A DNA stretch of 44,033 nucleotides, taken from IMG/VR virus record IMGVR_UViG_3300025138_013595, positions 1 through 44,033 of that record. One strand, given 5' to 3'. Position 1 is the stretch's first letter; each line of letters starts with the position of its first letter. Shown one piece after another: positions 754 to 29,604 of this stretch. This DNA comes from a virus. The position numbers and the translations under genes were made by a program. The notes under the pieces are model-generated. The model worked only from the letters and a program-made list of their open reading frames with translations. It was not told where the DNA came from and did no database searches.

Positions 754-1092
754 TTAAAGTATGCCAAGTGTTCGTGCAACTTTCTTTGCAACATCTCCAG
801 AACGATCTACACGTTTACCGGACTTTTTGATTGTGATGACACGCTCATTTACAATCATATATAAATCTCCATCTGAAACACTTATTGGAGTGTTTGGATC
901 AACTCTTGCTAAGTCCTCAAACCCCGTGATGCCCTTCTCAGACGCTTGACGCATGAGATCCCTGACATCATCGGGATTGATTGTTTTGTGTGAACTAGAA
1001 TCAATAAATTTTCTTATTGCTGTACTCTTACCAGACGCAGCACCGCTTGGTGACACGAACGCCTCACTAATATATTGCAAAAAAGATTTCAT
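754..1092 (-). CDS. Small P-loop-like protein with capsid-targeting-type N-terminus
   Basis: 112 residues. The start is the ATG at 1092, because it forms an ATGA overlap with the stop of the upstream HNH gene; an in-frame ATG further upstream is less likely. The N-terminus MKSFLQYISEA resembles the T4 capsid-targeting sequence (MKTYQEFIAEA in T4 internal proteins), with the I-x-E|A prohead-protease site after residue 10. Residues 14-22 (SGAASGKST) resemble a Walker A loop with Ser for the first Gly, followed by INPDDVRDLM, which recalls zeta-toxin/polynucleotide-kinase-type P-loop kinases. The protein is much shorter than those kinases, so it is either a minimal derivative or a remnant. Function unknown; the leader suggests packaging in the head. 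Confidence 0.75.
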   Translation of the reverse strand: MKSFLQYISEAFVSPSGAASGKSTAIRKFIDSSSHKTINPDDVRDLMRQASEKGITGFEDLARVDPNTPISVSDGDLYMIVNERVITIKKSGKRVDRSGDVAKKVARTLGIL

Positions 1093-1607
1093 AAATTGAT
1101 CCATTGACTCCAAAGTTTCTTACCATTCTCATCGAGTCCGGTAAGATGTAATGCATAGTATTTAGGTTTCGTTGGTTTGCAGCGAAGATTCAAATCACAC
1201 TCTTTGACTAATTTACTACCCTTCTTATTATTGCATTCAAAACATGCCGTGACTAGATTTGTCCACCCACTATCACCACCCTTGCATCGGGGGTGGACAT
1301 GATCTATTGTCAAATTCTTTACATTCTTGGTATGAAAACCACAATATTGACAGGTATGATTATCTCGCTTGAAGATGTTCCTACGAGTCGGACGCACATC
1401 GAGTTCGGGCAATTCGTGAAAACGAATAAGGACGATGGCGGCAGGTATTTCTACCTTTCCGTTCACCGTCCTTATCGAGTGGGTCTTTTTATATGGAGTC
1501 AGTGGTTTTGTTGCCTTACCAGAAAGCAAAAGTCTAACCGCTTTTTTCCATGATATAATCTTTAGTATCTGTTCACATGAGTTGAGTAGCAATACTTCTC
1601 GTTTCAT
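1089..1607 (-). CDS. HNH endonuclease
   Basis: About 172 residues. The C-terminal half holds a classic zinc-HNH module: CQYCG, then LTIDHVHPRCKGG, W-x-NLVTAC, and CNNKKG; the two CxxC pairs bind structural zinc and the DH...N residues form the nicking site. The ATG at 1607 is preferred because AAAGG lies six bases upstream; the ATG at 1613 directly abuts that Shine-Dalgarno. The HNH module follows a longer N-terminal segment seen in stand-alone phage and bacterial HNH proteins. It lies between two genes with capsid-targeting-like leaders, as expected for a free-standing homing-type endonuclease that has inserted in a structural operon. Substrate unknown. Confidence 0.88.
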   Translation of the reverse strand: MKREVLLLNSCEQILKIISWKKAVRLLLSGKATKPLTPYKKTHSIRTVNGKVEIPAAIVLIRFHELPELDVRPTRRNIFKRDNHTCQYCGFHTKNVKNLTIDHVHPRCKGGDSGWTNLVTACFECNNKKGSKLVKECDLNLRCKPTKPKYYALHLTGLDENGKKLWSQWINL

Positions 1608-1642
1608 GCACATCCTTTCGTATCATACCATAGTTTTCGAGG

Positions 1643-2416
1643 TCAACCATCACCCTTATCACGGTTATATCGATTGTCATCATCAGGCATCTGGAAAACA
1701 TTGTCCCAGAAATCATTTTCTATCTCTCGAATCTGTTCTTGTTGATCAAACCACTCTTCGATTATATCAACAAACCATCTACCCCAACCGCCGCCGCTGT
1801 CATCGGGTTCTATAACATCGGGAGGATAGGGACCGGGTTTTCCGTCACCATCGGGGTCGAGGTCATCCATGTTCGGTCGATCGACCGGTGGTTGTGCTGC
1901 TGGTGGGGTTGTTTGGAATGGACGACCATCGGGGTCAACTGGGTCTTGGTCACCAGATCGGTATTCAATTCTCGAAATTTTACCATTCTGTCCATATGAA
2001 AGTTGAATATTACCTGTTTTGACTAGATCAGTGAACACCTCAGTATATTCATGAACCTGATTCACAGTTTTTAACGTCGGTACATTCCGCATTTCTGCTT
2101 TGACTATTGGTCTAGAGGCAGCAATCGCGGCATGGGGAGAACTATAAAGTTGACCGTTCATACCTCTGAACTGTACTGCACCAGTTTCTTTATCCCTAAC
2201 AATATTGTTTCTCTTGACACCAGCGGCGACGGCAGCAGTGATCTCTGGACTGATATCTTTACCGGGTTTGTTTGCAGGCGAGGAAGGACTATCTCCAGAA
2301 ACAGAACCAAACCCCATTATACCAGAAAACTTAGTTGCTGGAGAAGAACCTGCTGATGCAAAAGATGCGTTATTCGCACCTACTTTTTCTTTTAAATATC
2401 TTTTAAATGATTTCAT
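1643..2416 (-). CDS. Probable capsid-targeted protein, Pro/Asp-rich C-terminus
   Basis: 257 residues of unrecognised family. It begins MKSFKRYLKEK, a T4-like capsid-targeting leader with an L-x-E site at residues 8-10. A low-complexity Ser/Ala/Gly stretch (about 12-50) follows, then a predicted mixed region around 70-165, then a Pro/Asp-rich linker containing DPDGDGKPG and an acidic, Trp-rich tail (about 205-257). The DPDGDG motif resembles a calcium-binding loop, but this is only a resemblance. The gene lies in the same minus-strand run as other leader-bearing genes. Role inferred: head-internal or structural protein. Confidence 0.7.
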   Translation of the reverse strand: MKSFKRYLKEKVGANNASFASAGSSPATKFSGIMGFGSVSGDSPSSPANKPGKDISPEITAAVAAGVKRNNIVRDKETGAVQFRGMNGQLYSSPHAAIAASRPIVKAEMRNVPTLKTVNQVHEYTEVFTDLVKTGNIQLSYGQNGKISRIEYRSGDQDPVDPDGRPFQTTPPAAQPPVDRPNMDDLDPDGDGKPGPYPPDVIEPDDSGGGWGRWFVDIIEEWFDQQEQIREIENDFWDNVFQMPDDDNRYNRDKGDG

Positions 2417-2418
2417 TT

Positions 2419-2841
2419 TTATTCGGAATCCATTCTGACGTATTCGCCTTTAGTTTTGTCCCATGTATAGGATGCCATTAATTGTTTTGCAGCATTCCTT
2501 GGATTTACACCCTTATAGTATAATTTAAGCATGTCGGTGGGTTTAATGTCTTCATATTTACCACCTGACTTCTTGAGAACTTTCTCGAACTCATCAAACC
2601 ATTTGATGAGTGGTTTATCTTCGGATCCTTGGTCCATCAGTGCTTCCTCGACTTCTTCCTTCTTCACACTCCATGTACCACCTTCGCCCTTGTACCACTT
2701 TGATGCCCATGCATTTGCATATGCAGATGGGTAAACATCAAACTTTGACTTTGCTTTTGCGATCGCCTTGTCCCATAGAGCGGGGTTGTCGGGAACATTT
2801 TTCTCTTGGAGATTGAGTGAAAGATCACTGAATGTTTTCAT
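2419..2841 (-). CDS. Capsid-targeting-like leader plus PSAYANAW-motif protein
   Basis: 140 residues. The leader MKTFSDLSLNLQEK again ends in L-x-E (residues 11-13). Residues 23-58 contain WDKAIAKAKSKFDVYPS followed by AYANAWASKWYKGEGGTW, a short motif that recurs in many marine phage and giant-virus proteins of unknown function. The C-terminal part (about 95-125) has a helical segment with KPTDMLKLYYKGVNPRNAA. The start overlaps the stop of the upstream 2838-5042 gene by 4 nt (ATGA), indicating translational coupling. Probably a virion or DNA-packaged protein; no enzymatic motif seen. Confidence 0.75.
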   Translation of the reverse strand: MKTFSDLSLNLQEKNVPDNPALWDKAIAKAKSKFDVYPSAYANAWASKWYKGEGGTWSVKKEEVEEALMDQGSEDKPLIKWFDEFEKVLKKSGGKYEDIKPTDMLKLYYKGVNPRNAAKQLMASYTWDKTKGEYVRMDSE

Positions 2842-5042
2842 GAATCGAATCCTTTATTGTATTTAGTAGACCAAGAATCTTGAATTCCTTGTTTCTTGGG
2901 ATCTTTGTCGGTTACGCCTGTTTTGACATTGATTGGTTTTTGACCTTTTCCACCATCACCAATGTCACCACGCTTTTTCTTGTCCTGTGCATATCTCTTG
3001 CGACGAACAAATGATGCGATCTTCTTCTTGCCTAGTTTATCTGCCTTCTGCTTTGAGAGACAGGCACTGTATGGTTCACCCTCTTTGGCATCACCACACT
3101 TGCCAAGTTTCTCTCCGTCTGTCCCGTAGCGATCCCAACCGGCACCACCACCTGCGGACTGTTGATTCATCCACTTACCCAGACCAGACTTTGCATAGGT
3201 CTTTTCGTCTAAGAATTCCGAATATTTCACGACTCGATCCTCACACATGGACGGATCTTTTTCTGCACCAAGTGATGCGACCGAATCCTTCATGAACTCG
3301 GCAATATCAATAACCTTTTGTAGATTATCATAATTTGCCCTATCAAGTATTTTGTTGACTGCGGGGATCGCAAGTAGACTCATCGCAAGATGTGTAGTCT
3401 GTGGATTTCTTGCAACAAGTTTAGCAACAGGTGTCATTTTCAACAACTTGGAAACAAGTCTATCCTTGAGACCCTCGTTTATTTGTACGTTCTCTTGAAT
3501 GTCATCGACGATTGCTGCCATGTCACCCATTGCGAACGATACATTATCACCTCGACGGTATAAGAAATACTTCACACCACCGGGGTTTTTCTTCGACTTG
3601 AGAATGATACGCTCGACCTTTGCCTTGCCTACCGTGCGGCGACCACTGGTGACAACGAGTTCGACGAAGTTCTTTGATGCTGTTGCCATCACTGACTTAA
3701 ACTTAACCTTGATGCTATCGCCCTTGTTGAGATCATTGAAAATACGAAGCATATCCTTGGGATCTACTGCCTCATCGAGTTGCGAAATTTCAAGAGACTC
3801 ACCACGGAACATTGCCATAGTCTGTCCGATCTCTGTACGCTTACCTGTCTTCTTGCCACGCAATGCTCTTATAATAGCATCACCCTCAAGTATCTTGATT
3901 GATTTCTCGACCATGTAATCCCCATCCGGTCGATACTCACCACAAACAAGTGACTTGATGCCTTGTCCATCATATGGAATCACACCTTCGTCTTCCATGA
4001 TATTAAGAACATCACTGATAATTTTATCGTTTATCTTTAAACCAGTAATTTCAGACCAGTCAGCACCAACTACACGATACCAACCCTTTTTCATTGCAAG
4101 ATACTCGACGAGTTTCTGCATATCTTTCTTTCCGGTTTTGAGATCTAAAAATTCATCTTTTGCTTCTTCTGCGGGATCAGGTGCGTCCATCGAGTCGTTC
4201 CACTTTTCAAGTACACCCAAGATATCTTTTACGGTGATACCAAAGTCTCTTGGTTTCTGCACAATGAACTGAACGTGGTAGGGAGTCATGCGTTTGGTGA
4301 TATATGACTTCTTTGTCTTGGGATGAATCCAACCCTTTATATCTGTGTTGATGCTCTCGGTCACATCACCCTTGCTCAATAGTTTCGATACTGGACTATC
4401 CTTCTCCCAGAATTTACATGACCAGTAACCGGGAGTGGTCTTATCAGTCTTTTCGTCACAATTGTGTCTCGCACGAAAGTTCTTGAGTCGGTCGGGACTA
4501 TCTCGCTTGATGGATAGGTTGGGGTCACCGAACTTGACCATGATGACATTGCCGGTCTTCGGGTTCTTGACGTAGACACCGAACTTCTTCTTCGATCCTT
4601 GTGGTAGGCGGAATGGGTTATCGAGATCAACCTCTTTACCCTTGTATTCACCACTGGTTTCGGACAACTCGTCGCATCCGCATCCGCAATCTTTTTTGAT
4701 GTAATCTTTGAATTCTTTCATAGTTCTCTTCTTAGTTATTTTTTTCATCTTTTCTATAAAAGCGAAGTAAACCTCTGCTGCCGCAGCGAGGTTTTTCTTC
4801 TTATCAGGATCATTCGCCCTCTTGCTGGCGACCTTTGCCCTCTGACTCATGGCGATTGCTGCCTGCACCTTATGTGCATGGGTGCGATCCGACTTTTCAA
4901 TCTTGACAACCGACTCTCTCGCCCTTGCCGCATCCGTGAACCCGAGTCCATGTATCGTACCCTTGGGATCCTCGTCTGTGTAGAGATCACTGTGGGTATC
5001 GGGGTCTTGCCCCTCCTTGGATTTGGGTATACGCTTGGTCAT
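2838..5042 (-). CDS. Large modular protein with internal capsid-targeting-like segments (possible cleaved polyprotein)
   Basis: 734 residues of modular build. Residues 1-107 contain TIHGLGFTDAARARESVVKI and HAHKVQAAIAMSQRA, a module often encoded separately in phages. At Met108 a second leader-like start, MKEFKDYIKKD, is followed by an L-S-E site (126-128) and a module with KKFGVYVKN, VKFGDPNLSIKRD and FRARHNCD that recurs in marine phage proteins. Further [IL]-x-E sites before small or polar residues occur at 422-424 (LDE|A), 521-523 (INE|G) and 611-613 (LDE|K). The last follows KYSEF, itself leader-like. The C-terminus (614-734) has the Gly/Cys/Lys-rich GWDRYG...KCGDAKEG...SFVRRKR module, also usually separate. 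A weak ribosome site precedes the internal ATG at 4721, so a shorter product is possible. I infer a fusion of packaged modules. Confidence 0.8.
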   Translation of the reverse strand: MTKRIPKSKEGQDPDTHSDLYTDEDPKGTIHGLGFTDAARARESVVKIEKSDRTHAHKVQAAIAMSQRAKVASKRANDPDKKKNLAAAAEVYFAFIEKMKKITKKRTMKEFKDYIKKDCGCGCDELSETSGEYKGKEVDLDNPFRLPQGSKKKFGVYVKNPKTGNVIMVKFGDPNLSIKRDSPDRLKNFRARHNCDEKTDKTTPGYWSCKFWEKDSPVSKLLSKGDVTESINTDIKGWIHPKTKKSYITKRMTPYHVQFIVQKPRDFGITVKDILGVLEKWNDSMDAPDPAEEAKDEFLDLKTGKKDMQKLVEYLAMKKGWYRVVGADWSEITGLKINDKIISDVLNIMEDEGVIPYDGQGIKSLVCGEYRPDGDYMVEKSIKILEGDAIIRALRGKKTGKRTEIGQTMAMFRGESLEISQLDEAVDPKDMLRIFNDLNKGDSIKVKFKSVMATASKNFVELVVTSGRRTVGKAKVERIILKSKKNPGGVKYFLYRRGDNVSFAMGDMAAIVDDIQENVQINEGLKDRLVSKLLKMTPVAKLVARNPQTTHLAMSLLAIPAVNKILDRANYDNLQKVIDIAEFMKDSVASLGAEKDPSMCEDRVVKYSEFLDEKTYAKSGLGKWMNQQSAGGGAGWDRYGTDGEKLGKCGDAKEGEPYSACLSKQKADKLGKKKIASFVRRKRYAQDKKKRGDIGDGGKGQKPINVKTGVTDKDPKKQGIQDSWSTKYNKGFDS

Positions 5043-5326
5043 CGAGTGGTGTGTCTTCCTAGATTATCCCTTGCTTCCTTGTCGAGTGCTTGATGGTTGT
5101 CCATGATGTGTTGCATACGATCTTGGAATTGACCACCTTGTGGTTTGTCTACCATATAATTAGAATCCATCCATGCGGTGGGTGCTGCCGTATATGCTTT
5201 CACGACTTTACCCGACTCACCACACTCTGGACATGCTTCGCCCAATGGTTCCTCACACTTGGACATGGTAAGAAAACTATCAAACGACTTTTCACAACTT
5301 CCGCAACTAAAACTGTACGTTGGCAT
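5039..5326 (-). CDS. FmdB-type zinc-ribbon protein
   Basis: 95 residues. The N-terminal half is a zinc ribbon: MPTYSFSCGSCEKSF has the first CxxC and EACPECGESG the second, the layout of FmdB-family regulatory ribbon proteins. The C-terminal half (about 50-95) is charged and probably helical or disordered. A good ribosome site (AGGAG, spacing 7) precedes the ATG. It is the first gene of the minus-strand run that continues to the left edge, coupled to the next gene by an ATGA overlap. A TATAAATA-like element lies about 20 bp upstream. Function unknown; small zinc ribbons of this type are common in phages. Confidence 0.82.
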   Translation of the reverse strand: MPTYSFSCGSCEKSFDSFLTMSKCEEPLGEACPECGESGKVVKAYTAAPTAWMDSNYMVDKPQGGQFQDRMQHIMDNHQALDKEARDNLGRHTTR

Positions 5327-5346
5327 AATAAAACTCCTACTTTATG

Positions 5347-5354
5347 TATTTAAA
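5347..5354 (-). promoter_or_regulatory. Possible late promoter (TTTAAATA)
   Basis: TTTAAATA on the minus strand differs by one base from the T4 late consensus TATAAATA. Its inferred start at about 5341 would give a short leader that keeps the AGGAG ribosome site of the zinc-ribbon gene. It would drive the structural and cargo run ending at the left edge. Single mismatch and AT-rich context make this tentative. Confidence 0.35.
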
Positions 5355-5355
5355 T

Positions 5356-6123
5356 TTAGGGTAGAGTTGCCAGATGCGAGTCGATCCATTCTTTGTAGAA
5401 TTCAATCGACGCACCGGCATTCTCGTATATACGACCATCACTTGTAATTCCATAATGTGTAATGATTCCTATCAATTTGTTATCATGAGTAAGAATCGCA
5501 CCACCCGAGTCACCGTGCCAGACGGTATCCCTTAGCGGGAGCATGATCATGAATCTTGGTGAAAGAACAAGTCTCCCGTAATATCTGAAGACACCGGGAT
5601 TGCTGTTTCTGCGTAGTCCATGACCATGCCCCACTGTGGTAAGAGGCATATTTTTATACAAGTCATCGGTCGCATTATTAAACATTAAACAAGGATCCTT
5701 ATCGGAATCAGACTCAAGAAATACAAGGGCAATATCATGCCAATTTCGCCTTAAAATAGAGGGAAAATAGACAATTCTGTTAATACAAGATCGATCACCA
5801 TCAACTTCGACCCATTCTAGATTATCCATATCTTTACTGTTCACAACATGAGCAGCAGAGAGAACGACATTAGGTGCAATGAGTACACCCGTCCCAATTA
5901 CAGAACCAGTGTTATAGTTTCGTATTGCACCAACAAAATCATATGAATCATTTTCATCAAACAAATGATAAGAAAAAGAATCAGACTGAGGAAGGGTGAA
6001 AGGTTCTGATGTAGGAGGAGTGTTATCGAAGGTGGTTGTGGTTACTGGAGAAACACAACTTCCCATGAATGAGGAGCATATTAAAGACGCTGAGAGATAC
6101 CTAGCAAGTATTGGTAACTGCAT
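5356..6123 (-). CDS. Secreted trypsin-like serine protease, putative lipoprotein
   Basis: 255 residues with the S1 (chymotrypsin/trypsin) triad: His92 in LSAAHVV, Asp130 in HDIALVFL and Ser206 in HGDSGGAI. GHGHG at 165-169 and the hydrophobic beta pattern fit the two-barrel fold. The N-terminus has a hydrophobic stretch (about 4-21) ending MGSC, a weak lipobox with Cys23 as possible lipidation site, so the enzyme is probably exported to the host envelope or periplasm. It sits alone on the minus strand, with no strong ribosome site. Phage proteases are usually cytoplasmic prohead proteases of other folds; an exported trypsin-like enzyme is unusual. Possible roles: envelope remodelling, superinfection blocking or lysis. 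Substrate unknown. Confidence 0.88.
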   Translation of the reverse strand: MQLPILARYLSASLICSSFMGSCVSPVTTTTFDNTPPTSEPFTLPQSDSFSYHLFDENDSYDFVGAIRNYNTGSVIGTGVLIAPNVVLSAAHVVNSKDMDNLEWVEVDGDRSCINRIVYFPSILRRNWHDIALVFLESDSDKDPCLMFNNATDDLYKNMPLTTVGHGHGLRRNSNPGVFRYYGRLVLSPRFMIMLPLRDTVWHGDSGGAILTHDNKLIGIITHYGITSDGRIYENAGASIEFYKEWIDSHLATLP

Positions 6124-6196
6124 CTCATTAGTATGTAGGGAAGTAAGGTAATGTTCTTTACTTTTTTATATTTTATGGGGTAAAGTCCCCATACTC

Positions 6197-6703
6197 CTAG
6201 TGATGCTCCATTGATTCATACACAAAGTCCCACATCCAATCCCATCGCCAATCTTCGGTATCCTCTACACCTTCCTTGACAGATCGCCTATTTGCCTCCT
6301 TGTCAATCAATTCTTCAATATCATCAAGATAAATTTCATCAATCATTTCACCATTCTCATAGATGCGAGAACCAACAAAGGTAGGACACTCGTCAATGAA
6401 CTTATGACGAATAGAACACTCATTGTCTGTAAGATAATTAATATGATCAATGAATGGCGAAATTTCACTCCATGCAGATTCAATACACAAATGAAGAGAA
6501 TTTTCATCAATGTAGGGGACATCATTAAACCGTGTCCACTTTGCACCAATATGATTATCATTCCATTTTACGGTATTCTCATAGGAATCATAGAGACAAT
6601 GAAGAGTGTCTTCATCAACAAGTTTCTTTAGAATAGAATTGATGGTATTGCTCTGGGAATTGGGGAATGTGATTTCGATTATGTTGTTAACGTGGTTTGC
6701 CAT
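6197..6703 (-). CDS. Hypothetical protein, possibly Api92/YubB-like ferredoxin-fold
   Basis: 168 residues. The start MANHVNNIIEITFP and the IGAKWTRFND segment recall the ferredoxin-like domain of Api92/YubB-type phage and plasmid proteins, which begin with a beta strand after MANH and carry a conserved G-x-KW. The C-terminus is very acidic and Trp-rich (DTEDWRWDWMWDFVYE). No catalytic motif is visible. It is a single-gene unit separated by gaps from neighbours on both sides. Family assignment is low-confidence; function unknown. Confidence 0.6.
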   Translation of the reverse strand: MANHVNNIIEITFPNSQSNTINSILKKLVDEDTLHCLYDSYENTVKWNDNHIGAKWTRFNDVPYIDENSLHLCIESAWSEISPFIDHINYLTDNECSIRHKFIDECPTFVGSRIYENGEMIDEIYLDDIEELIDKEANRRSVKEGVEDTEDWRWDWMWDFVYESMEHH

Positions 6704-6822
6704 TGTGTATGAATCTTTCTTAATGTTGTGGTGGAAAATGGGGGAAAATGTTGCAAAATGTGTTTTATTAATTAAATAAAAAGGATATGCGTGGTTTGTG
6801 CCGCTCAGAGTGTCATAGAGAA

Positions 6823-7260
6823 TTAGTCCAGTCCAGCATCTTTTCGCAACTGTGATAGGTACTTCGCTGTTCGTTTTCGGTAATCACCGCAAGGCAATTT
6901 GTATTTCTCAATGACGCTCCATGCCTGACTCTCTGTGTGTTCTTCCATGATCAGGTAGTTGGCATCGTTACTTTTCTTTATCCAGTTTATGTACACGGGA
7001 TCGTCGGTGAACCACTGCCACATGTGTGAGTATTCATGTGCAAGTGTGTGCAACCATTTGGTCTTCGCCCCACCTACAGCGACCGCGATGACACCCGACT
7101 CGTCTCCGTCTGGTGCGTTGAAGTATCCATCTGTCTGTGTCCTATCGTCGGATGCAATGATCGTTTTGCCGGAGCCGAAAAGCAGTTGAACCGAGAAACG
7201 TGATGCTTCCCGGTCAACCAACTTTATAAAATTATTTGCTTGTGGGCAGGTTGTTATCAC
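6823..7260 (-). CDS. Zincin-like metallopeptidase (HEXXH)
   Basis: 145 residues with HEYSH at 75-79 inside a hydrophobic helix (LHTLAHEYSHMWQW) and a downstream acidic cluster EEHTESQAW (106-114) that could supply the third zinc ligand, as in gluzincins. The stop-start overlap with the upstream VWA/metallopeptidase gene (7257-9512) shows co-translation. With that protein and the divergent AAA ATPase it may form a proteolytic or remodelling module. No signal peptide seen, so likely cytoplasmic. Substrate unknown. Confidence 0.78.
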   Translation of the reverse strand: MITTCPQANNFIKLVDREASRFSVQLLFGSGKTIIASDDRTQTDGYFNAPDGDESGVIAVAVGGAKTKWLHTLAHEYSHMWQWFTDDPVYINWIKKSNDANYLIMEEHTESQAWSVIEKYKLPCGDYRKRTAKYLSQLRKDAGLD

Positions 7261-18690: not shown

Positions 18691-18973
18691 ATGAAATACT
18701 TACCTCAAGAACCTACCCTTAAGATGATTAACTTATATTATGTAATGCGTGTCTCCAGCGATATGGTAGGCGGCGATTTCCGACCCGCATCGGATTGAGT
18801 CATATTTAGGAGATGATTGGGAACTAGATGCCCAGTCGTATATCTCCGAACGCGGACCCCGTTCTTATGGGGGAGACCCCATAAGAACATTTCATGTGCT
18901 AGAAACGATTTGCAGTGGTCGTGGAAGCAAAAACAAGCACACTGCACTTTTATATGAAAGGTTGTTTATATGA
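18691..18973 (+). pseudogene. Frameshifted small gene (or programmed +1 frameshift)
   Basis: The frame starting at ATG 18691 (GAAGGAG upstream) codes for 35 residues (MKYLPQEPTLKMINLYY...DFRPASD) and stops at 18798. The +1 frame is open from about 18770 to 18973 and continues with coherent protein: IESYLGDDWELDAQSYISER, GPRSYGGDPIRTFHVLET and KNKHTALLYERLF. Removing one C near 18781 (GATTTCCGACCC) would join them as GGDFDPHRIESYLGDDW. The second part ends in an ATGA overlap with the next gene, as expected for a real upstream gene. Either an inactivating single-base insertion, a sequencing error, or a +1 frameshift at the TTC CGA step. No recognised family. Confidence 0.6.
18861..18888 (+). 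other. Perfect 12-bp stem with GAGA tetraloop
   Basis: GTTCTTATGGGG pairs with CCCCATAAGAAC around GAGA (a GNRA loop). It lies inside the frameshifted gene and has no U-run, so an RNA structure or a site for regulation is more likely than a terminator. Confidence 0.6.
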
Positions 18974-19230
18974 ACAACAACTCCCCTAAGCGTCAGATCA
19001 TCTCGTACCTTGCCGAAGGCAAGAGCATCACTCCTAAGCAGATGCGAACCAAGTTCGGGGTCAAGAACCCTACCGCGACTCTTCGCAACGTGCGTGACAC
19101 CGTGGAAAACTACGGTAACTGGACCATCGTCGAAGATGGTATCTACGGTGGCGAAACTCAGTTCGCCATGAAGCGAGTTGCACTCGTCAGTCCTACCGTG
19201 GACACCGACGATCTTGCTGATCTCTACTGA
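18970..19230 (+). CDS. Helix-turn-helix DNA-binding protein
   Basis: 86 residues. RQIISYLAEGKSITPKQMRT and FGVKNPTATLRNVRDT (8-44) make a winged-helix/HTH pattern similar to small phage and plasmid regulators with a repeated turn after NP. A short tail is acidic. ATGA overlap with the frameshifted gene upstream and GAAAGG ribosome site. A regulator of host-type transcription is plausible; target unknown. Confidence 0.75.
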   Translation: MNNNSPKRQIISYLAEGKSITPKQMRTKFGVKNPTATLRNVRDTVENYGNWTIVEDGIYGGETQFAMKRVALVSPTVDTDDLADLY

Positions 19231-21769: not shown

Positions 21770-21975
21770 GCAAATATACCATCAGAGACCATAAAGAATT
21801 TGATGGTAATATGCGGGTATTCCTGACAGACCCAACGCAAGTTATGATCATGGGTAGTCCTGAATTGAAAAAGTATATTAAGCAAAGAATCGACGAACAC
21901 CAGAGTAAAATAGAATACTGGGATCGACTTAAGAAATTAAACGAGAAAGTATCCCAAGGGGTTGACAGAGACTGA
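21766..21975 (+). CDS. Hypothetical protein
   Basis: 69 residues from the GTG at 21766 (GTGA overlap). SKYTIRDHKEFDGNMRVF and KIEYWDRLKKLNEKV, mostly helical, charged. Its 3' end contains the -35 of the tmRNA promoter. Unrecognised. Confidence 0.55.
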   Translation: MSKYTIRDHKEFDGNMRVFLTDPTQVMIMGSPELKKYIKQRIDEHQSKIEYWDRLKKLNEKVSQGVDRD

Positions 21976-21989
21976 ATACCTGCTATAAT
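21962..21989 (+). promoter_or_regulatory. Sigma70-type promoter for the tmRNA transcript
   Basis: TTGACA (21962-21967) and TATAAT (21984-21989), 16-bp spacer ending AATACCTG as in the promoter at 18636. Inferred start near 21996, right at the start of the acceptor piece of the tmRNA. Confidence 0.85.
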
Positions 21990-21995
21990 ACATAC

Positions 21996-22335
21996 TGTGT
22001 CGTTGAGGAAGACGGCAAGATTCACACGGACACGGGAGTTCGACTCTCCCCGCCTCCACCAAACACACTCTCTCGTTTCAAAGATATGAAACGCTAGAAC
22101 AATTAAAGACATGACACGGCGGGAGAGTGTGTTTGGCGGGGGCGAAATGGAATCGATTCGGTGAAATCGAAGCGTTGGAGACGACTGAGAAGGCGACCTA
22201 CTCATTAATCGCGGTTGCAAAATCTAACTGACAACAGTTACTCACTCGCTGCTTGATAGCAGCACGGACCCTTGGATGAGGGCAACCTCATTCAAGGCAT
22301 TACAGACAAATGCCTATCTCACTAACTCGGGAAAC
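21996..22335 (+). ncRNA. ssrA: Permuted (two-piece) tmRNA
   Basis: The tRNA-like 3' end comes first: T arm GGGAG/CTCCC with TTCGACT (22034-22050), acceptor CGCCTCC and an encoded ACCA ending at 22061. An intervening segment (22062-22137) follows; CCAAACACACTCTC (22059-22072) pairs perfectly with 22123-22136. The 5' piece begins at 22138 with GGGGGCG, which pairs with CGCCTCC, then AAATGGAATCGATTCGG, the tmRNA start signature. GTCGT at 21999 can pair with ACGAC near 22180 to make helix P2. The tag region ends in the hairpin GCTGC/GCAGC around stop codons. Around 22216 the LAA-ending tag frame is offset from GCA by one A in a run of four. Permuted tmRNAs occur in Alphaproteobacteria and some cyanobacteria. 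Confidence 0.92.
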
Positions 22336-22351
22336 AAGAAAGGAGAATGGC

Positions 22352-22480: not shown

Positions 22481-22800
22481 CAATTGAATAAAAATTGAAG
22501 AGAGACTGATCCTCTCTCTTCGGGACTCGCATAATAATCCTCAGACTGGGGATAGTGCAATCTCTGAATGGTTTAGCGACCTGTTCCCTACGATGTAGAA
22601 ATACTTGAGGGATGACCCTTAGCGGGGTGTGCGGAGAGATCTGAGTAGAGTACTACGCATCATGTACAGTCACTCGAAAAGTTCAGGTATACATGAATCC
22701 TGAGTCCCATTGATCTAATTTGGTAGAGTGGAGTGGAAACGCGATCAGAAAAATCTGATTGTTGGACTCCGAAATGGTCCCACACATTCTACCATACATA
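22481..22800 (+). ncRNA. Candidate structured non-coding RNA
   Basis: About 320 bases without a plausible gene. It begins with a 9-bp hairpin (GAAGAGAGA/TCTCTCTTC, 22497-22521), and near its end has a closing helix GGTAGAGTG/CATTCTACC (22722-22730/22785-22793) enclosing GATCAGA/TCTGATT (22743-22760) and a GGAC/GTCC stem. It does not match tRNA, RNase P, 6S or group I intron signatures I know. Located directly before a good terminator and on the tmRNA transcript. Nature unknown. Confidence 0.45.
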
Positions 22801-22801
22801 G

Positions 22802-22833
22802 AAAGCATCACCTTCGGGTGGTGCTTTTCTTTT
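22802..22833 (+). terminator. Intrinsic terminator with UUCG loop
   Basis: 11-bp stem AAAGCATCACC/GGTGGTGCTTT closed by a TTCG tetraloop and followed by TTTCTTTT. Ends the tmRNA transcript. Confidence 0.92.
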
Positions 22834-22864
22834 ACGCCTACATATTTGGTCAAGGGAGACTTAC

Positions 22865-23947
22865 ATGAAAGAATTCAACGACCTATATGAGCAGGCAAAA
22901 TTCTGCTATAAACTAAACGAGGCAAGATCTCGCGGTGAGGAGATGGAAGAATTTATTATCGCAGCAATCAACAAAGAACCGCAACCCGTATCGAAATTCG
23001 GTATCGAAGACGGAGCAGGGGAACGAATCGCCAAGCAACTCCGCAAAGCAGGAGTGAAGGGAAAAGGTTTGGTTCTCGGTGCAGACCAACTAGAAGTCAC
23101 TGAACTCTGGTCACAATACTGGTTACCCGGAAAGGTTCCAGCATCCACGAAGACACCAAAGACAGACTTCAAGATCGGCAATGATAAAATTTCATTAAAG
23201 ACTGGTGGTGCTGCTCAGTTAATGAGTGGTGGTAAGAACGAATCTATCGCTACCTTCTATTGTGCTATTGACCGTCTAGGTCTTAACATGGGTGGCATGG
23301 CATCCCGTATCGAAAAGGCAATGCTTGATTTATCTCCCTCAAGTATCGCACAGAGTAATCTCAAAGATGAAATTAAACTCGGTAAAGATAAAGTAGTTAA
23401 AGCAGCGAATGAAGCACACAAGGTTCTGATGGGAGACATGAAAAAGATGTTTGCATCGAACCCAGACTTTGCATACGAATTTGCATATGAAGCAATGACT
23501 GGTGATATTAAATTCGGTGGTAGTGATGGTTCATGTTCTCACTTCCTCTCGGTCTCTGACGACGGCAATACAATTAAATTGGTTGGAGTTGGCGACGAAG
23601 CATATGTAAGAAAAGTTGCAAGTAAGATGAAAGTTTCCGTCCGGTTCAAGACCACCAGTGAAAAGTCTGGTGGAGTCAAGACCGGGCGTTATCGTTACTG
23701 GTCTGCCATCGGACTTATTGTAGATAAACTCACCGAGAGTTATGAGGAAATTGGTCAACTACTTAATGAGGGTAAACTCGACGAAGGTATTCTTGGAAGA
23801 ATTCTTAACAAGTTCATTGCTTTCCTTAAGAAGCAAATTGCCAAGATCAAAGAATTCGTTGTCAAGTCAGGAAAGAACCTGATCGAATTCCTCGGAGCAG
23901 AACCAAGCGTTTCCTTTAACAACAATATTGACTTTACTAAGATATGA
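22865..23947 (+). CDS. Capsid-targeted candidate with PD-(D/E)XK-like motif
   Basis: 360 residues. Leader-like start MKEFNDLYEQAKFCYKLNEA; the first [IL]-x-E|A is LNE|A at 17-19. Residues about 100-125 have KTDFKIGNDKISLKTGGAAQ followed by LMSGGKNES, reminiscent of the D...(E/S)-x-K core of restriction-like nucleases, though not proven. Two adjacent protease-like sites, LNE|G and LDE|G, occur at 300-308, just before a Lys-rich amphipathic tail. It starts a plus-strand run of leader-bearing genes after the tmRNA terminator, overlapping the next gene by 4 nt. Function unconfirmed; nuclease-like role inferred. Confidence 0.75.
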   Translation: MKEFNDLYEQAKFCYKLNEARSRGEEMEEFIIAAINKEPQPVSKFGIEDGAGERIAKQLRKAGVKGKGLVLGADQLEVTELWSQYWLPGKVPASTKTPKTDFKIGNDKISLKTGGAAQLMSGGKNESIATFYCAIDRLGLNMGGMASRIEKAMLDLSPSSIAQSNLKDEIKLGKDKVVKAANEAHKVLMGDMKKMFASNPDFAYEFAYEAMTGDIKFGGSDGSCSHFLSVSDDGNTIKLVGVGDEAYVRKVASKMKVSVRFKTTSEKSGGVKTGRYRYWSAIGLIVDKLTESYEEIGQLLNEGKLDEGILGRILNKFIAFLKKQIAKIKEFVVKSGKNLIEFLGAEPSVSFNNNIDFTKI

Positions 23948-24657
23948 AATCTTTTAAAACTTACATTTCATTAGAAGAACAAAGTGCAGTCACCTCTCAT
24001 GGTGAACCAACTGCACATCAATATCGCATTATGCAAAAATCCCATGAGATTCTGCCCGTGGACTCCGTTCAGGGTCTAATCTCTGCACCCCCGTCCAGTT
24101 CCTCTGACGAGACGCGGGCGGAACTCATGGAATTACAAGATAGACTTGAACTGGGAACAGACAATAAGAAAATGTTGGATAAGTGGGATCTGGATCTTCT
24201 TGCTCCATTTGTAAAGTATCTTAAAGACAACAATCTCCGATATGATAAAGAACTTTTAAATGATATAATCAACGCTTCCACGGTCGTGATGTTAAAGCAA
24301 AAGTATCTTTTTGATCGTCCTCGTCCGGGCATTGTAGCGAAAGATATGGGTCTTCCCCTATCTCCTCTCAAGAGCGGCACAGCGGACTCTCCAGCGTATC
24401 CTAGTGGACACAGTGGGCAGTCCAGACTCATCGCACTGTACCTCACAGGACTCCATAGAGACCACTCTAGCAGTTTCTTAGATTTAGCGGAAGAATGTGG
24501 TCAGTCAAGACTAAACGCCGGTGTACACTATCCTAGCGACCACGAAGCGGGTGTGGAACTAGGAAATAAATTATACGCTTCGATGAAGACGGATGAGACT
24601 AAAAAAATAAAATATAAAGACTTACCCGCACCACCAACCGGCATGGAAGGATATTGA
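23944..24657 (+). CDS. PAP2-family acid phosphatase with capsid-targeting leader
   Basis: 237 residues. All three PAP2 motifs are present: K120-x6-R127P (KYLFDRPRP), PSGH at 153-156, and SR-x5-H-x3-D (Ser188, Arg189, His195, Asp199). These provide the catalytic His and phosphate-binding Arg/Lys of class A acid phosphatases and lipid phosphatases. There is no signal peptide or membrane segment. Instead the start MKSFKTYISLEEQ is a T4-like leader ending L-E-E. This suggests a soluble phosphatase packaged with the genome. Possible substrates include nucleotides, sugar phosphates or pyrophosphates; none is shown. I am confident of the family, less so of the role. Confidence 0.88.
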   Translation: MKSFKTYISLEEQSAVTSHGEPTAHQYRIMQKSHEILPVDSVQGLISAPPSSSSDETRAELMELQDRLELGTDNKKMLDKWDLDLLAPFVKYLKDNNLRYDKELLNDIINASTVVMLKQKYLFDRPRPGIVAKDMGLPLSPLKSGTADSPAYPSGHSGQSRLIALYLTGLHRDHSSSFLDLAEECGQSRLNAGVHYPSDHEAGVELGNKLYASMKTDETKKIKYKDLPAPPTGMEGY

Positions 24658-24658
24658 T

Positions 24659-25873
24659 ATGTTAGATTTTAAAAGATTCTTATCCGAAGAAAAGAACCTC
24701 CACCTTGAACACCTTGAAGACGAGTTGATCAACAATGGATCCAAGGGTGCAAGAGAAGCAATTACCTTTGCAGAATCTCTTGTAAAAATGTTAGCAGGTA
24801 GTGGGTCGAAAAAGTACAACATCACTGTCAAATGGGACGGCGCACCCGCAGTCTTTGCGGGCATCAACCCCGAGAACGGAAAGTTCTTCGTTGGGTCGAA
24901 GAGTGTTTTCAATGTTACCCCAAAGATAAACTATACTAACGCAGATATTGCTAAAAATCATACAGGCGGTCTTGCTGATAAATTGAAAGTTGCGTTAGCA
25001 AACTTATCAAAACTAGGAATCAAAGATGTGCTACAGGGTGATATGATGTTCAGTGACGATCTTGCTTCCCAGAAGATCGATGGCGTAGATTATATTACCT
25101 TTACTCCAAACACAATCACATACGCTGTTCCGGCAGATAGCGATCTTGCGAATACAATTGTCAAAGCAAAGATGGGAATCATTTTCCATACCAAATATAC
25201 CGGCAATGATCTCCAGACGATGAAGGCATCATTTGGTCCTGATATTTCATATCTTAAGAAAACCTCAGCAGTATGGTTTGACGATGCAACACTTAAAGAT
25301 GAAACGGGAGTTGCAACATTTACTGCAAAAGAAACAGAAGCAGTTAAAAAGAAATTACAGAAGATTCGTGCCATGATGGACCGAAAGACCATGAAGGTTA
25401 TGGATGATTTCCTTGCTGATGACACGATGCAATTATACATTAAGACATTCTATAATACACTCGTCCGTGCTGGAGCATTCGGAACTCCCTCTGCCACATA
25501 TGCAGGATTCAAGGAGTGGACCGAAAAGAAATTTGATACAGACATTGCCAAGATGAAGTCTGAAAAAGGTAAAGAAAAGAAACTACAAGTAAAGAAACAA
25601 ATGATGTCATATATCCGAAGCAACTCCAAGGCGTTGTTACGGATGTTCGCTGTACATGCAGCGTTGCGTGATGTCAAGATGATTCTCGTCCGTAAGATCG
25701 AACAGGTTAAGTCTATTGGACTCTTCCTTAAGACGGACAATGGATTCGATGTGACTGCCCCGGAGGGTTTTGTTGCAATCGATAGACTATCAAATCGGGC
25801 ATTTAAACTCGTTGATAGATTAAATTTCTCACAGGCAAACTTTAATGCCGCCAAGAACTGGGAAAAAGGATAA
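24659..25873 (+). CDS. Ligase/nucleotidyltransferase-like protein (DUF6267-like) with leader
   Basis: 404 residues. The leader MLDFKRFLSEE ends L-S-E|E. KWDG at 58-61 (ITVKWDGAPAVFAG) is the covalent-nucleotidyl-transfer motif I (KxDG) of DNA/RNA ligases and capping enzymes. FFVGSKSVF (77-84), LQGDMMF (125-131) and MGIIFHTKY fit later motifs in the same family-like order. The C-terminal half is Lys-rich and helical. Its marine-phage relatives (DUF6267-like) are of unknown function. If active it would join or modify nucleic-acid ends; that is inference. Confidence 0.78.
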   Translation: MLDFKRFLSEEKNLHLEHLEDELINNGSKGAREAITFAESLVKMLAGSGSKKYNITVKWDGAPAVFAGINPENGKFFVGSKSVFNVTPKINYTNADIAKNHTGGLADKLKVALANLSKLGIKDVLQGDMMFSDDLASQKIDGVDYITFTPNTITYAVPADSDLANTIVKAKMGIIFHTKYTGNDLQTMKASFGPDISYLKKTSAVWFDDATLKDETGVATFTAKETEAVKKKLQKIRAMMDRKTMKVMDDFLADDTMQLYIKTFYNTLVRAGAFGTPSATYAGFKEWTEKKFDTDIAKMKSEKGKEKKLQVKKQMMSYIRSNSKALLRMFAVHAALRDVKMILVRKIEQVKSIGLFLKTDNGFDVTAPEGFVAIDRLSNRAFKLVDRLNFSQANFNAAKNWEKG

Positions 25874-25876
25874 ATA
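25869..25876 (+). promoter_or_regulatory. Possible late promoter (GATAAATA)
   Basis: GATAAATA, one base from TATAAATA, followed by CTTAAAAGGAGATAAAC before the next ATG. A nearly identical arrangement, CATAAATACTTTAGTAC then AGGAGATAAACA, precedes the 28468 gene, suggesting a common control unit. Confidence 0.4.
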
Positions 25877-25893
25877 CTTAAAAGGAGATAAAC

Positions 25894-26088
25894 ATGGCAT
25901 CTAGAAAATTAAATGCAAAGACGTATCAAATCAAAAGACTATCTCGTCGAGATGAAATTAGTTCTAAAACACGTTGTGGTTATACACCATTACCTAAACC
26001 AGAACCAGTTACACCTGTCGCAGAAGTCCCCGTTGTAAAACCAAAAAAAGCACCAGCACCGAAGTTGCGTGCAAAGTCCACCAAATAA
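25894..26088 (+). CDS. Small Pro/Lys-rich basic protein
   Basis: 64 residues: MASRKLNAKTYQIKRLSRRD, then PKPEPVTPVAEVPVVKPKKA. Strongly basic with a Pro/Val/Lys tail resembling DNA-condensing or linker peptides. AAAGGAG ribosome site. It follows the ligase-like gene in the cargo operon. Possible head-internal DNA-binding protein; inferred. Confidence 0.6.
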   Translation: MASRKLNAKTYQIKRLSRRDEISSKTRCGYTPLPKPEPVTPVAEVPVVKPKKAPAPKLRAKSTK

Positions 26089-26098
26089 GGAGGTGATC
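26086..26098 (+). promoter_or_regulatory. Exceptionally complete Shine-Dalgarno sequence
   Basis: TAAGGAGGTGATC is complementary to 13 bases of the usual 3' end of 16S rRNA (GATCACCTCCTTA), six bases before the ATG at 26100. This is far longer than usual and should give very strong initiation. Confidence 0.85.
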
Positions 26099-26099
26099 T

Positions 26100-26231
26100 A
26101 TGGAAAATTTAGACACTGCTAACATTCTCGGAACTATTTTTTACAGTATCGTTGTCTTTGGTCTTGGTGCCTTAAGTGGCAGAAAGATCTGGTACTGGGT
26201 TCGTAAATTCTTTCCTTGGAACAAGGACTGA
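26100..26231 (+). CDS. Small single-helix membrane protein (43 aa)
   Basis: 43 residues, hydrophobic helix ILGTIFYSIVVFGLGALSG (about 9-27) followed by basic, aromatic RKIWYWVRKFFPWNKD. TGATG overlap with the large fusion gene downstream and an unusually complete Shine-Dalgarno. Possible membrane anchor or lysis-related peptide; unknown. Confidence 0.65.
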   Translation: MENLDTANILGTIFYSIVVFGLGALSGRKIWYWVRKFFPWNKD

Positions 26232-28471
26232 TGATAGAATATCGTTCATTAAAAGAACGTACCCTACTCAGGGGACAGAAAGAGAAATCTGCTGTCCTCA
26301 CATTCGGTAGGTTTCAACCACCAACAACCGGTCACGGTAAACTGGTGGATGCTGTCCTATCAACTGCGAAGAAACTGGGGGCGGATGCCTTTATTTTCCC
26401 CAGTCGAACGCAGGATAAAAAGAAGAACCCTCTTCAGACCAAAGATAAAGTAAAATTTCTCAAGAAGTTCTTCCCGCGTGCCCGGATTGTCAACGACAAA
26501 AATGCAAAGACTGTTTTCACCGCAATTGAAAGTCTTGTAAAGAAAAATTACACCGACATCACCCTAGTTGTCGGTGGTGATCGGGTCGATGAGTTCAAGA
26601 AAACCATCGCACCCTACGTTGATGAAATGGGACTTAAAAAGTTTCAAGTCGTTAGTGCCGGTGAGCGTGATCCAGACGCAACCGATGTCAGTGGAATGAG
26701 TGCGTCGAAAATGCGTGCTGCCGTTACTGACAATGACTTCGACTCCTTTATGAAAGGAATTCCCAAGGGTGTTGGTAAAAGAGTTGCAAAAGAACTCTTC
26801 GATACTCTGAAGAAAGAGATGGGTCTAAACGAAGAAACCAAGGAACCAAAGAAGAACAACCTCAAACGATTCCTCATCGTTAGTGCTTCTGATAAAGGAG
26901 ACACTACATCTAAACTTATCGATGCAGTAGAAGACTTAGGACACAAACCCACGGTCATTCGTGCGGACACGGCATATATCGGTGATGTGGACGGCGACAA
27001 TCTAACAATTGAAAACATTGATAAGAAGGGCGAAGACATTACAATTAATGTCAAAGAAACAATTGCTTTTGTCCGAGGATCCTCCATGAAGACCGCAGGT
27101 GGTCGAGCATTAGTTGAGGGTCTGGACAGTAGCAATACTTTGGTTATAAATTCAAAGCAAGTTTTCGACTTGCTTGGTAACAAGTATGCCACCCACGTTT
27201 TGTTTGAAAGAGAAAATATCAATACCCCACGAACCGCGTTGATCACAAACGAGTCATCGATTGATCGGGCGCACAAGAAGGTCGGTGGAAAGTTCCCGGT
27301 CATCGTGAAGTCACTTCATGGCGCAGAGGGAATCGGTGTTGCGAAGGTTGACTCACAAGAGTCTTTCAAATCAGTTGTACAATCACTGCGTAAAAGCGGC
27401 GAGGATATTCTTGTACAGGAAATGATCGACATCGATGGAGATGTAAGAAGTATTGTCATGGATGGTAAAATCGTCGCATCCATGAAACGACTCAAGGCAG
27501 AGAAAGACTTCCGAACCAACAAGGCGTTGGGTGCAGAAAGCGAACCATATTCCCTCTCTGAATCTGAAAAGAAATTTGTAAAGAAAATTGCAAAGGCATC
27601 TGGTGCTATCCTTGCTGGCGTAGACCATGCGATTGCTAAGGACGGAAAACTATATGCCATTGAAGTGAACGCTTCTCCCGGTTCTGGTGCCCAAGATTAT
27701 ACAAAGTATATCGACGAGGATCAAGAAGAGGGAGTTGTCGATGGCGACGAACTCGTCAGAGATATTGTAGAGAGATCGCTACTCATCACTAAACCGGCAG
27801 AGGCATTCACTGTCGGTCGTGTTGAAACTGTCAAGATCGGTGGACGTACAATCAAAACTAGAGTTGATTCTGGTAACTCATCATATTCTGTCGTTGATGC
27901 AAGAGAAATAAAAGAAAGCAAAGGAACAGTCCGGTTTGTTTTCGACAGCACCAAGTTTAAACGTCCAGTGGTTGACACTGTAGAGATAAACATGGGTGGT
28001 GGTAAATTTGAAGAACGATATGTGGTCGAGATGGACATGCAGATTGGTCGAAAGACTTTTGAAAATGTAAAGTTCTCTTTATCTGATCGCAGTTCAAATG
28101 TATATCCTTCCCTCCTTGGTAACGAGTTTATGAAAGAAAACAACGTAGTGGTTCACACCAACGAAGTTTACATGCAGGAACTTGAAGAGAGAACTCTCAC
28201 TAAGGGTGAGAAGGATAAAAAAGAGAAATATATAAAAGGAATGAAGAAGCAAGCGAAAGATTTTAAAAAACGCTATGGTTCAGATTACAAGTCGGTGATG
28301 TACGGCACCGCAACCAAGATGGCAAAACGTGATGCCACCGAGGAAGATATTGATTTTGATTCTCCTCCTGAAGAGGGAACTGATGAAATTGTACGGCGTT
28401 ATAAAAAAATGACTCCGGGTGAATTGAATGAAATTGCACATAAATACTTTAGTACAGGAGATAAACAATGA
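26231..28471 (+). CDS. HIGH-type nucleotidylyltransferase / RimK-like ATP-grasp / RimB-like retropepsin fusion
   Basis: 746 residues; the ATG at 26231 (TGATG) is chosen over an upstream TTG. Leader MIEYRSLKE ends L-K-E. Domain 1 (about 20-195): nucleotidylyltransferase with FGRFQPPTTGH (TTGH at 32-35), GGDRVDEF (115-122) and SGMSASKMR (154-162). Domain 2 (about 210-515): RimK-like ATP-grasp, with RPR-like TPRTAL, the nucleotide-binding segment near K360 (FPVIVKSLHGAEGIGV) and the metal site IEVNAS (477-482). Domain 3 (about 525-645): retropepsin-type aspartic protease with DSG at 546-548 and LLGNEFM, as in RimB/DUF785 proteins. C-terminus (650-746) has RTLTKGEKDKK and MYGTATKMAKR. [IL]-x-E sites occur at 199-201 and 651-653. 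RimK and RimB in bacteria modify ribosomal protein S6; combined here in one packaged-type protein. Confidence 0.88.
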   Translation: MIEYRSLKERTLLRGQKEKSAVLTFGRFQPPTTGHGKLVDAVLSTAKKLGADAFIFPSRTQDKKKNPLQTKDKVKFLKKFFPRARIVNDKNAKTVFTAIESLVKKNYTDITLVVGGDRVDEFKKTIAPYVDEMGLKKFQVVSAGERDPDATDVSGMSASKMRAAVTDNDFDSFMKGIPKGVGKRVAKELFDTLKKEMGLNEETKEPKKNNLKRFLIVSASDKGDTTSKLIDAVEDLGHKPTVIRADTAYIGDVDGDNLTIENIDKKGEDITINVKETIAFVRGSSMKTAGGRALVEGLDSSNTLVINSKQVFDLLGNKYATHVLFERENINTPRTALITNESSIDRAHKKVGGKFPVIVKSLHGAEGIGVAKVDSQESFKSVVQSLRKSGEDILVQEMIDIDGDVRSIVMDGKIVASMKRLKAEKDFRTNKALGAESEPYSLSESEKKFVKKIAKASGAILAGVDHAIAKDGKLYAIEVNASPGSGAQDYTKYIDEDQEEGVVDGDELVRDIVERSLLITKPAEAFTVGRVETVKIGGRTIKTRVDSGNSSYSVVDAREIKESKGTVRFVFDSTKFKRPVVDTVEINMGGGKFEERYVVEMDMQIGRKTFENVKFSLSDRSSNVYPSLLGNEFMKENNVVVHTNEVYMQELEERTLTKGEKDKKEKYIKGMKKQAKDFKKRYGSDYKSVMYGTATKMAKRDATEEDIDFDSPPEEGTDEIVRRYKKMTPGELNEIAHKYFSTGDKQ
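28439..28446 (+). promoter_or_regulatory. Possible late promoter (CATAAATA)
   Basis: CATAAATA differs from TATAAATA at the first base only. It lies at the end of the fusion gene, 22 bases before the ATG at 28468, followed by AGGAGATAAACA. Very similar to the element at 25869. Confidence 0.4.
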
Positions 28472-28785
28472 CAGCACCAAATCCATTTGACAACAGCACT
28501 ACTAATAACCTCAAGGGGGTTATTGATGCGGTTAGTCAAGTTATTAGTGGCGGAGAACCCGCCGTCCCAGAAGAAATGGGAACACATGCCGATGCAGCAG
28601 CATCGGAGATTGCTAAGATCGAAGGACCACATCTTCAGGGTGATATCACCAAGATTATGCAAAAGCATTTTTCTGCTGGATCCAAAGGCAACCCACAAGA
28701 AACTAAGATGCAAAAAGCATTTGAAAAGGAAGTTGGGAAGCGAGTTGCCCAAGGGCGAGCGGCAGGAAAGTGGAAAGAACACTGA
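28468..28785 (+). CDS. Hypothetical protein
   Basis: 105 residues starting MTAPNPFDNSTTNNLKGVID. Ala/Glu/Lys-rich helical body with DAAASEIAKIEGPHLQGDI and KMQKAFEKEVGKRVAQGR. ATGA overlap with the fusion gene. No family recognised; may be a structural or scaffold-associated protein. Confidence 0.62.
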   Translation: MTAPNPFDNSTTNNLKGVIDAVSQVISGGEPAVPEEMGTHADAAASEIAKIEGPHLQGDITKIMQKHFSAGSKGNPQETKMQKAFEKEVGKRVAQGRAAGKWKEH

Positions 28786-28786
28786 T

Positions 28787-29164
28787 GTGATAGATAATAT
28801 TTATTATGGTTTTGATGATGATGCATTCCAAGATTATGCAATGCAAAATTATAAAAATCCTTCTTGCTCGGGAAGAGAAGAATTTGAAGAGGATATAAAC
28901 CGAATCAAATATGTCAAGCGTCTGTTTGGCAGATACTTCTCAACCGGAGAACTTAAAGAACGATTGATATTGAATCATATCATCATCTTTTATAATGTAT
29001 TTGAGATGGAAGCAGCGACTAAGATGCTTTTCTATCGTATGGAAGATAGATTTAAACCATTAGTGAAAACATTTTTGGTTTACCTAAATTACCTTCCTGA
29101 AGATGAAGCATATGTACGAGTCCCAATGGATACAAAAGTTATACAGATACTCAGGAGACTATAA
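28787..29164 (+). CDS. Conserved T4-like phage protein (marine type), unknown function
   Basis: 125 residues from the GTG at 28787. The order NIYYGFDDDAFQDYA, NPSCSGREEFEEDINR, KRLFGRYFSTGELKERLILN, NHIIIFYNVF and FLVYLNYLPE is characteristic of a small protein found in many marine T4-like phages. No enzyme motif; function unknown. One-base TAATG overlap with the next leader-bearing gene. Confidence 0.75.
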   Translation: MIDNIYYGFDDDAFQDYAMQNYKNPSCSGREEFEEDINRIKYVKRLFGRYFSTGELKERLILNHIIIFYNVFEMEAATKMLFYRMEDRFKPLVKTFLVYLNYLPEDEAYVRVPMDTKVIQILRRL

Positions 29165-29604
29165 TGAAATCGTTTGAAGAATTTAAACAATACACACAAG
29201 AACAATCTGGGGTACTAGAATTATTCTTCATAGAAGAAGCACCGACAAATGCTGGCGGTGCTTCTATTTCACAGGGCGGAGTTGATACAAACGGTTCGTT
29301 TGATAAGGTTGCTGGGTTAGACAAACCACTCCTAAAAAAGAAGAAGAAAAAAGAACTAGAGAAATATGAGGGTAAATCATTTAGCGTCTCTGCCGAAGAG
29401 TTTGAAAAACTAAAAGCAGGAAAAGTTCGTGGTGCTAGATGGAACAAGTATATCGATGAAACCTCTGAACTGGGGACGGAGATAAAAAGATTTTCTTTAC
29501 GAAACCCATCTAAACCAGTTGTCATTAGAAACGAAGAAACAGGAGAAGTTGTCTTTCTTCGTCGTAGACAAAACGACGGTAGACTTAGACACAATAAGTC
29601 ATGA
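29164..29604 (+). CDS. Capsid-targeting-leader protein, basic
   Basis: 146 residues. The leader MKSFEEFKQYTQEQ continues to VLELFFIEEA, where I-E-E|A at 23-25 matches the prohead-protease site. The body is basic with KPLLKKKKKKELEKYEGKSF, FSVSAEEFEKLKAGKVRGAR and ends RRRQNDGRLRHNKS. Such small basic leader proteins are like T4 internal proteins that are injected with DNA. Function inferred from leader and composition. Confidence 0.75.
   Translation: MKSFEEFKQYTQEQSGVLELFFIEEAPTNAGGASISQGGVDTNGSFDKVAGLDKPLLKKKKKKELEKYEGKSFSVSAEEFEKLKAGKVRGARWNKYIDETSELGTEIKRFSLRNPSKPVVIRNEETGEVVFLRRRQNDGRLRHNKS

Follow-up and report, generated by a model that had tools for sequence, protein, structure and literature searches.

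The genome fragment analyzed here raises the question of why a set of otherwise dissimilar viral proteins should begin with the same kind of short leader. The analyzed stretch, hereafter called the window, comprises positions 1 to 44,033 of IMG/VR record IMGVR_UViG_3300025138_013595 (44,033 nt) and is a 44-kb fragment of a marine phage of the T4 type. Its DNA polymerase finds its best matches in cyanophages (about 50% identity), and recA/UvsX-, helicase-, primase-, ribonucleotide-reductase- and CobS/CobT-like proteins were recognized by eye. Eight non-homologous genes share a leader with an M-x-x-F/Y-type start and an [IL]-x-E end, arranged in two groups at 754-2841 (minus strand) and 22865-29604 (plus strand). 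The first-pass annotation had listed these leaders and likened them to the gp21-cleaved leader of T4 internal proteins. All eight exist, but those at 754-1092, 1643-2416 and 2419-2841 are on the minus strand.

The leaders are present on unrelated bodies, including nuclease-like, PAP2, DUF6267, CTP_transf/RimK and unknown families. The minus-strand group consists of a 112-aa protein with a P-loop-like GAASGKST motif (754-1092; MKSFLQYISE↓A, the arrow marking the predicted cut), for which family searches gave no match, a 257-aa protein of unknown function (1643-2416; MKSFKRYLKE↓K), whose single relative found is identical, and a 140-aa protein (2419-2841; MKTFSDLSLNLQE↓K) with a weak DUF5872 match below the cut-off. 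Absent from the earlier list was a 734-aa fusion on the same strand (2838-5042), which harbors an apparent former leader and a KYSEFLDE↓K site internally. The plus-strand group encodes a putative PD-(D/E)XK nuclease (22865-23947; MKEFNDLYEQAKFCYKLNE↓ARSRGEEMEE), a PAP2-family phosphatase without obvious membrane spans (23944-24657; MKSFKTYISLEE↓Q), a DUF6267 protein with an invariant KWDG (24659-25873; MLDFKRFLSE↓E), a 746-aa fusion of NMNAT-like cytidylyltransferase, RimK-type ATP-grasp, Zn/Asp-protease-like and ERTLTKGEKD modules (26231-28471; MIEYRSLKE↓R), and a 146-aa protein (29164-29604; MKSFEEFKQYTQEQSGVLELFFIEE↓A) with a long leader ending in FFIEE↓APTN (or FIE↓E).

Pfam supports the earlier calls of a phosphatase (PF01569 PAP2, 39.9 bits; curated cut-off 27.2) and of a RimK-type fusion (CTP_transf_like, RimK and Zn_protease). 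The description of the DUF6267 protein as ligase-like stands only insofar as the KWDG motif, its sole basis, is invariant; when a nucleic acid ligase or nucleotidyltransferase was considered, searches by PDB fold and by sequence gave no significant match. The nuclease assignment is model-based and putative: the best fold match is the restriction endonuclease HinP1I (E=4e-3, prob 0.89; model pLDDT 65), and D101, S110 and K112, candidates for the catalytic D-x(n)-[DEQS]xK of PD-(D/E)XK nucleases, are invariant in the family. This protein has a second conserved site, LLNE↓G, at residues 297-302, followed by a C-terminal helical tail, and the two regions modeled with low confidence, residues 7-20 and 291-312, are those in which the conserved LxE sites at 19 and 302 lie. 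By analogy with T4 Alt, the site at 302 suggests C-terminal processing.

In T4, the capsid-targeting sequence (CTS) is an N-terminal propeptide of 10-19 aa with Y/F at positions 4 and 7, I/L at position 8 and Glu at position 10 or at the cut; targeting is a matter of residues 4 and 7, processing by gp21 is directed by residues 8 and 10, and gp21 cuts after L/I-x-E (PMC9026906). The window leaders match this sequence at positions 4, 7, 8 and 10. Three have the exact spacing of T4 IPII/IPIII (MKTYQEFIAE↓A, cut by gp21), sharing the 10-residue form with F/Y4, F/Y7, I/L8 and E10 and the predicted cut after L/I-x-E, whereas the others are length variants of 9 to about 25 residues. The predicted P1' residues also differ, since K, R, Q and E occur where T4 internal proteins have A or S, and this speaks against capsid targeting.

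The frequency of the leader was assessed with the motif M..F..[FYLI].{0,9}[IL].E, which was shaped on the window itself. It occurs at 7 of 62 N-termini in the window vs none of 252 internal methionines (Fisher p=9e-6), and in 11 other genomes, with the window excluded, at 15 of 2280 vs 9 of 7952 positions (p=2.6e-5). This confirms that the leaders are real and above chance. A very strict pattern had been dropped because it missed leaders of variable length, and the pattern was widened before the comparison with mass spectrometry data. As a control, the exact 10-residue form matched only ipII, ipIII and 61.1 among 261 T4 ORFs; a scan with exact spacing thus recovers known capsid-targeted proteins and little else. 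T4 gene 61.1 (18966-19130), annotated as hypothetical only, starts with MKTFKEFIKE↓D in perfect capsid-targeting spacing. A scan of the window for T4 late promoters (TATAAATA/CTAAATA) gave no matches above chance and was not useful.

Judged on their own sequence, the proteins at 26231-28471 and 2419-2841 are the poorest members of the set. It is conceivable, although on balance unlikely, that some members, mainly these two, are false positives while the rest are genuine, which would be compatible with capsid targeting of the remainder. The T4 spacing is matched least well by MIEYRSLKE↓R and MKTFSDLSLNLQE↓K, in which P1' is R or K. However, relatives of the 26231-28471 protein show clearer leaders (MKKFSEIIE↓A and MRFSDFLQE↓Q), and in three cyanophages a homologous cytidylyltransferase is among the virion proteins.

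Among relatives, the length of the leader is variable, and a Glu is fixed where the conserved body begins. In the nuclease family, leaders of 10 to 19 residues (MKEFNDLYEQAKFCYKLNE, MKDFKDLYESAKNQQSLTE, MLSLKGHSLLSE, MKSFIQLINE and MGSFKNYLKE) are followed by the body directly after Glu, and M1 and E19 are the sole invariant leader positions. The PAP2 family keeps MK[SP]F and an [IL]xE or FE before Q/E around a variable middle (junctions SICE↓Q, SLQE↓Q, PLFE↓Q and QLRE↓E), and in the 29164-29604 family both long and short leaders precede NAGGAS. A leader is present in 46 of 48 distinct DUF6267 N-termini from IMG/VR, the two exceptions beginning at the body itself, with P1' residues A (21), G (14), E (5), D (3) and S (3). 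On unrelated bodies, then, only the CTS-critical positions and the junction Glu are conserved. Such variable length between invariant ends would be expected if the leader is a removable propeptide, and not if it is a functional domain.

The window itself contains no gp21, but its absence from a 44-kb fragment is uninformative. A search of ten cultured relatives detected gp21 (PF03420) in every one of them, and three large IMG/VR contigs carry it too. The closest large contig, G002, which has 28 genes in common with the window at a median identity of 80% and largely in the same order, carries adjoining genes for portal, prohead protease, scaffold and major capsid protein (gp20-21-22-23). Predicted from sequence only, the gp23 sites are YLKE↓AAPSN in this contig, FLSE↓AAPTN in Melnitz and Mosig, and LLGE↓AAPTN in DLP6. 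The gp23 proteins of relatives and the leaders therefore have the same [IL]-x-E site, and the body start of the 29164-29604 protein resembles the predicted mature gp23 (AAPTN/AAPSN).

These observations also bear on the possibility that the leaders are assembly tags for tail, baseplate, neck or scaffold that are not removed by gp21. This is consistent with the deviating P1' residues K, R, Q and E, with the internal leader of the 2838-5042 fusion, whose Lys at P1 indicates that targeting may matter without cleavage, and with the T4 finding that Asp at position 10 prevents processing yet leaves targeting intact (PMC9026906). Nevertheless, the junction Glu is the leader residue most conserved across families, the gp23 sites of the same phages have [IL]-x-E as well, and the leader-bearing virion proteins of S-CREM2 include enzymes and not tail parts. 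A tag that stays on the protein thus appears improbable.

Published virion proteomes of relatives allow a comparison with detected proteins. For cyanophage S-CREM2, 52 virion proteins have been detected (PMC10665884), of which 26 non-structural ones could be mapped (table entries 145, 165 and 174 were not mapped by the gene caller). With the motif frozen, 4 of these 26 were positive vs none of 168 undetected proteins (p=2.6e-4), namely SAM hydrolase gp6, APH-like kinase gp14, cytidylyltransferase gp154 and gp155. A further-widened motif (6/26 vs 1/168, p=2e-5) was set aside in favor of the frozen one, because the pattern had been adjusted after the S-CREM2 sequences were known. By eye, leaders were also found in gp12, gp13, gp15 and gp136, and the DUF6267 protein of this phage lacks a leader and is absent from the list of virion proteins. 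Like the window, S-CREM2 has Q, E and K among its predicted P1' residues, so that the oddity of the window residues carries less weight as an objection. The result comes from one phage only, and the close gene neighbors gp12-gp15 are not independent.

The association was not reproduced proteome-wide in S-SCSM1, where 1 of 46 virion proteins vs 4 of 232 others matched the motif (not significant). The NMNAT of this phage, with the leader MKSFLQFLKE↓A, is nevertheless a virion protein, as are its contiguous neighbors gp089, gp282, gp280 and gp279, which have no clear leaders (PMC9602691). In S-SZBM1 the cytidylyltransferase was likewise detected in virions. Enzymes homologous to or of the same class as those considered here (NMNAT/cytidylyltransferase, SAM hydrolase, APH-like kinase) thus occur in the virions of S-SCSM1, S-SZBM1 and S-CREM2, and in S-CREM2 and S-SCSM1 these enzymes start with the same leader as the window proteins. 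The tag is not required for packaging, since several detected virion proteins have no recognizable leader, and virions purified by CsCl may carry contaminants according to the authors of both proteome papers. A homologue of the ATP-grasp part in YerA41 is annotated as a structural protein and lacks such a leader, so that leaders are not the sole route into the virion. Leaders, targeting sequences and cleavage all go unmentioned in the main texts on S-CREM2 and S-SCSM1 (PMC10665884, PMC9602691), a literature search on capsid targeting in cyanophages returned the T4 review alone (PMC9026906), and no sequenced mature N-terminus from these phages was found. Several unrelated, mostly virion-detected proteins have a second module in common after the leader, A..LGL.SDGHG.W.D..G..VA.T..GEL.FYD, which is carried by S-CREM2 gp12 and gp14 (L243), the S-SCSM1 NMNAT (L244:7734-8963) and syn9 149735-150883. 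From its sequence, this module is perhaps another packaging domain.

That the leaders are chance resemblances or convergent amphipathic N-termini without a role in packaging, for instance a translation or folding signal of late genes, is very improbable, because the looseness of the motif, the unrelated appearance of some matches in other phages and the non-significant S-SCSM1 count are set against the 7 of 62 vs 0 of 252 in the window, the invariant ends of variable-length leaders on non-homologous bodies and the association with virion detection in S-CREM2.

The leaders are thus probably a T4-type capsid-targeting propeptide system, as the first-pass annotation had proposed, and would serve here as a common tag by which a whole kit of enzymes is shipped. 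The observed basis for this consists of the leaders themselves, their conservation pattern, the gp21, gp22 and gp23 genes of the syntenic relative, and the detection of leader-bearing proteins of relatives in virions, above all in S-CREM2; the replicate in S-SCSM1 failed, and neither packaging nor cleavage has been shown for this phage. Late in infection, F/Y at position 4 and an aromatic or aliphatic residue around position 7 would dock the precursor on the scaffold core in the prohead. The protease gp21 would then cut after [IL]-x-E and the leader would be lost, although its removal in relatives has not been measured. The mature protein would remain in the head with the DNA and be injected into the next host. 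The inferred cargo would comprise the nuclease-like protein, the PAP2 phosphatase, the DUF6267 protein, the NMNAT/ATP-grasp/protease fusion, the small P-loop-like protein and three unknowns.

In fusions, cuts at domain borders might release single enzymes. The 746-aa fusion has LNE↓E at 201 just before the ATP-grasp domain and LEE↓R at 653 just before the ERTLTKGEKD module, and phage Mosig encodes the ATP-grasp/protease part as a free protein whose own leader, FKNYLEE↓A, stands in the place of LNE↓E in the window fusion. In the 2838-5042 fusion, the internal MKEFKDYIKK (residues ~108-117) lies at a domain junction, and the domain behind it is a free leader-bearing protein in C48C1 (MKKFKQYIDE↓G, 55% identity). 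MKEFKDYIKK is apparently a fossil leader, judging from these sequences; as Lys replaces Glu at P1, the cut there is probably lost, and the KYSEFLDE↓K near residue 613 looks intact. However, the 746-aa protein contains ten LxE motifs, and because the motif is short and some matches are accidental, processing of the fusions remains a hypothesis.

The mechanism class is already known from T4, where cargo is loaded into the prohead core. The T4 internal proteins IPI and IPIII have anti-restriction and anti-defence functions. By analogy, the likeliest, still speculative, purpose of the cargo is takeover in the first minutes of infection or counter-defence, and NAD metabolism involving the NMNAT domain is perhaps, equally speculatively, part of that takeover. 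T4 internal proteins are few and small, whereas enzymes in the window cargo reach 746 aa and domain fusions are among them. In phiKZ and SPN3US, too, a gp21 homologue removes the propeptides of many head and ejection proteins, and enzymes are carried in the virion, but these are giant phages with another cleavage motif (S/A-x-E in phiKZ) and not close relatives of the window phage (PMC9026906). The breadth of the enzyme cargo, the presence of gp21-type sites at the domain borders of fusions and the predictive use in marine phages appear undescribed in the literature searched. A wider generalization is possible but somewhat less likely than not, namely that marine T4-like phages use the leader as a general, transferable tag for a large and fast-changing enzyme arsenal and that some fusions are cut in the head at gp21 sites into several injected enzymes. 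If true, a T4 curiosity would become a sequence rule for predicting the proteins that abundant ocean phages deliver into host cells, and it would become clear why NMNAT, SAM hydrolase and kinase have repeatedly been detected in cyanophage virions, for which an explanation has been lacking. As proteins co-injected with DNA are a natural place for early counter-defence, a tag that names them would provide a ready-made list of candidates.

Further features of the window were unexpected for a phage: a trypsin-like serine protease (5356-6123, minus strand) and a porin-like outer-membrane protein (31138-32181, minus strand), both identified from sequence alone and both with a signal-peptide-like start. 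Directly upstream of the plus-strand leader cluster, a permuted (two-piece) tmRNA gene is located at 21965-22347 (plus strand; tag DNSYSLAA; Rfam tmRNA_permuted, 70.5 bits, cut-off 47), and a tmRNA carried by a phage is unusual in itself.
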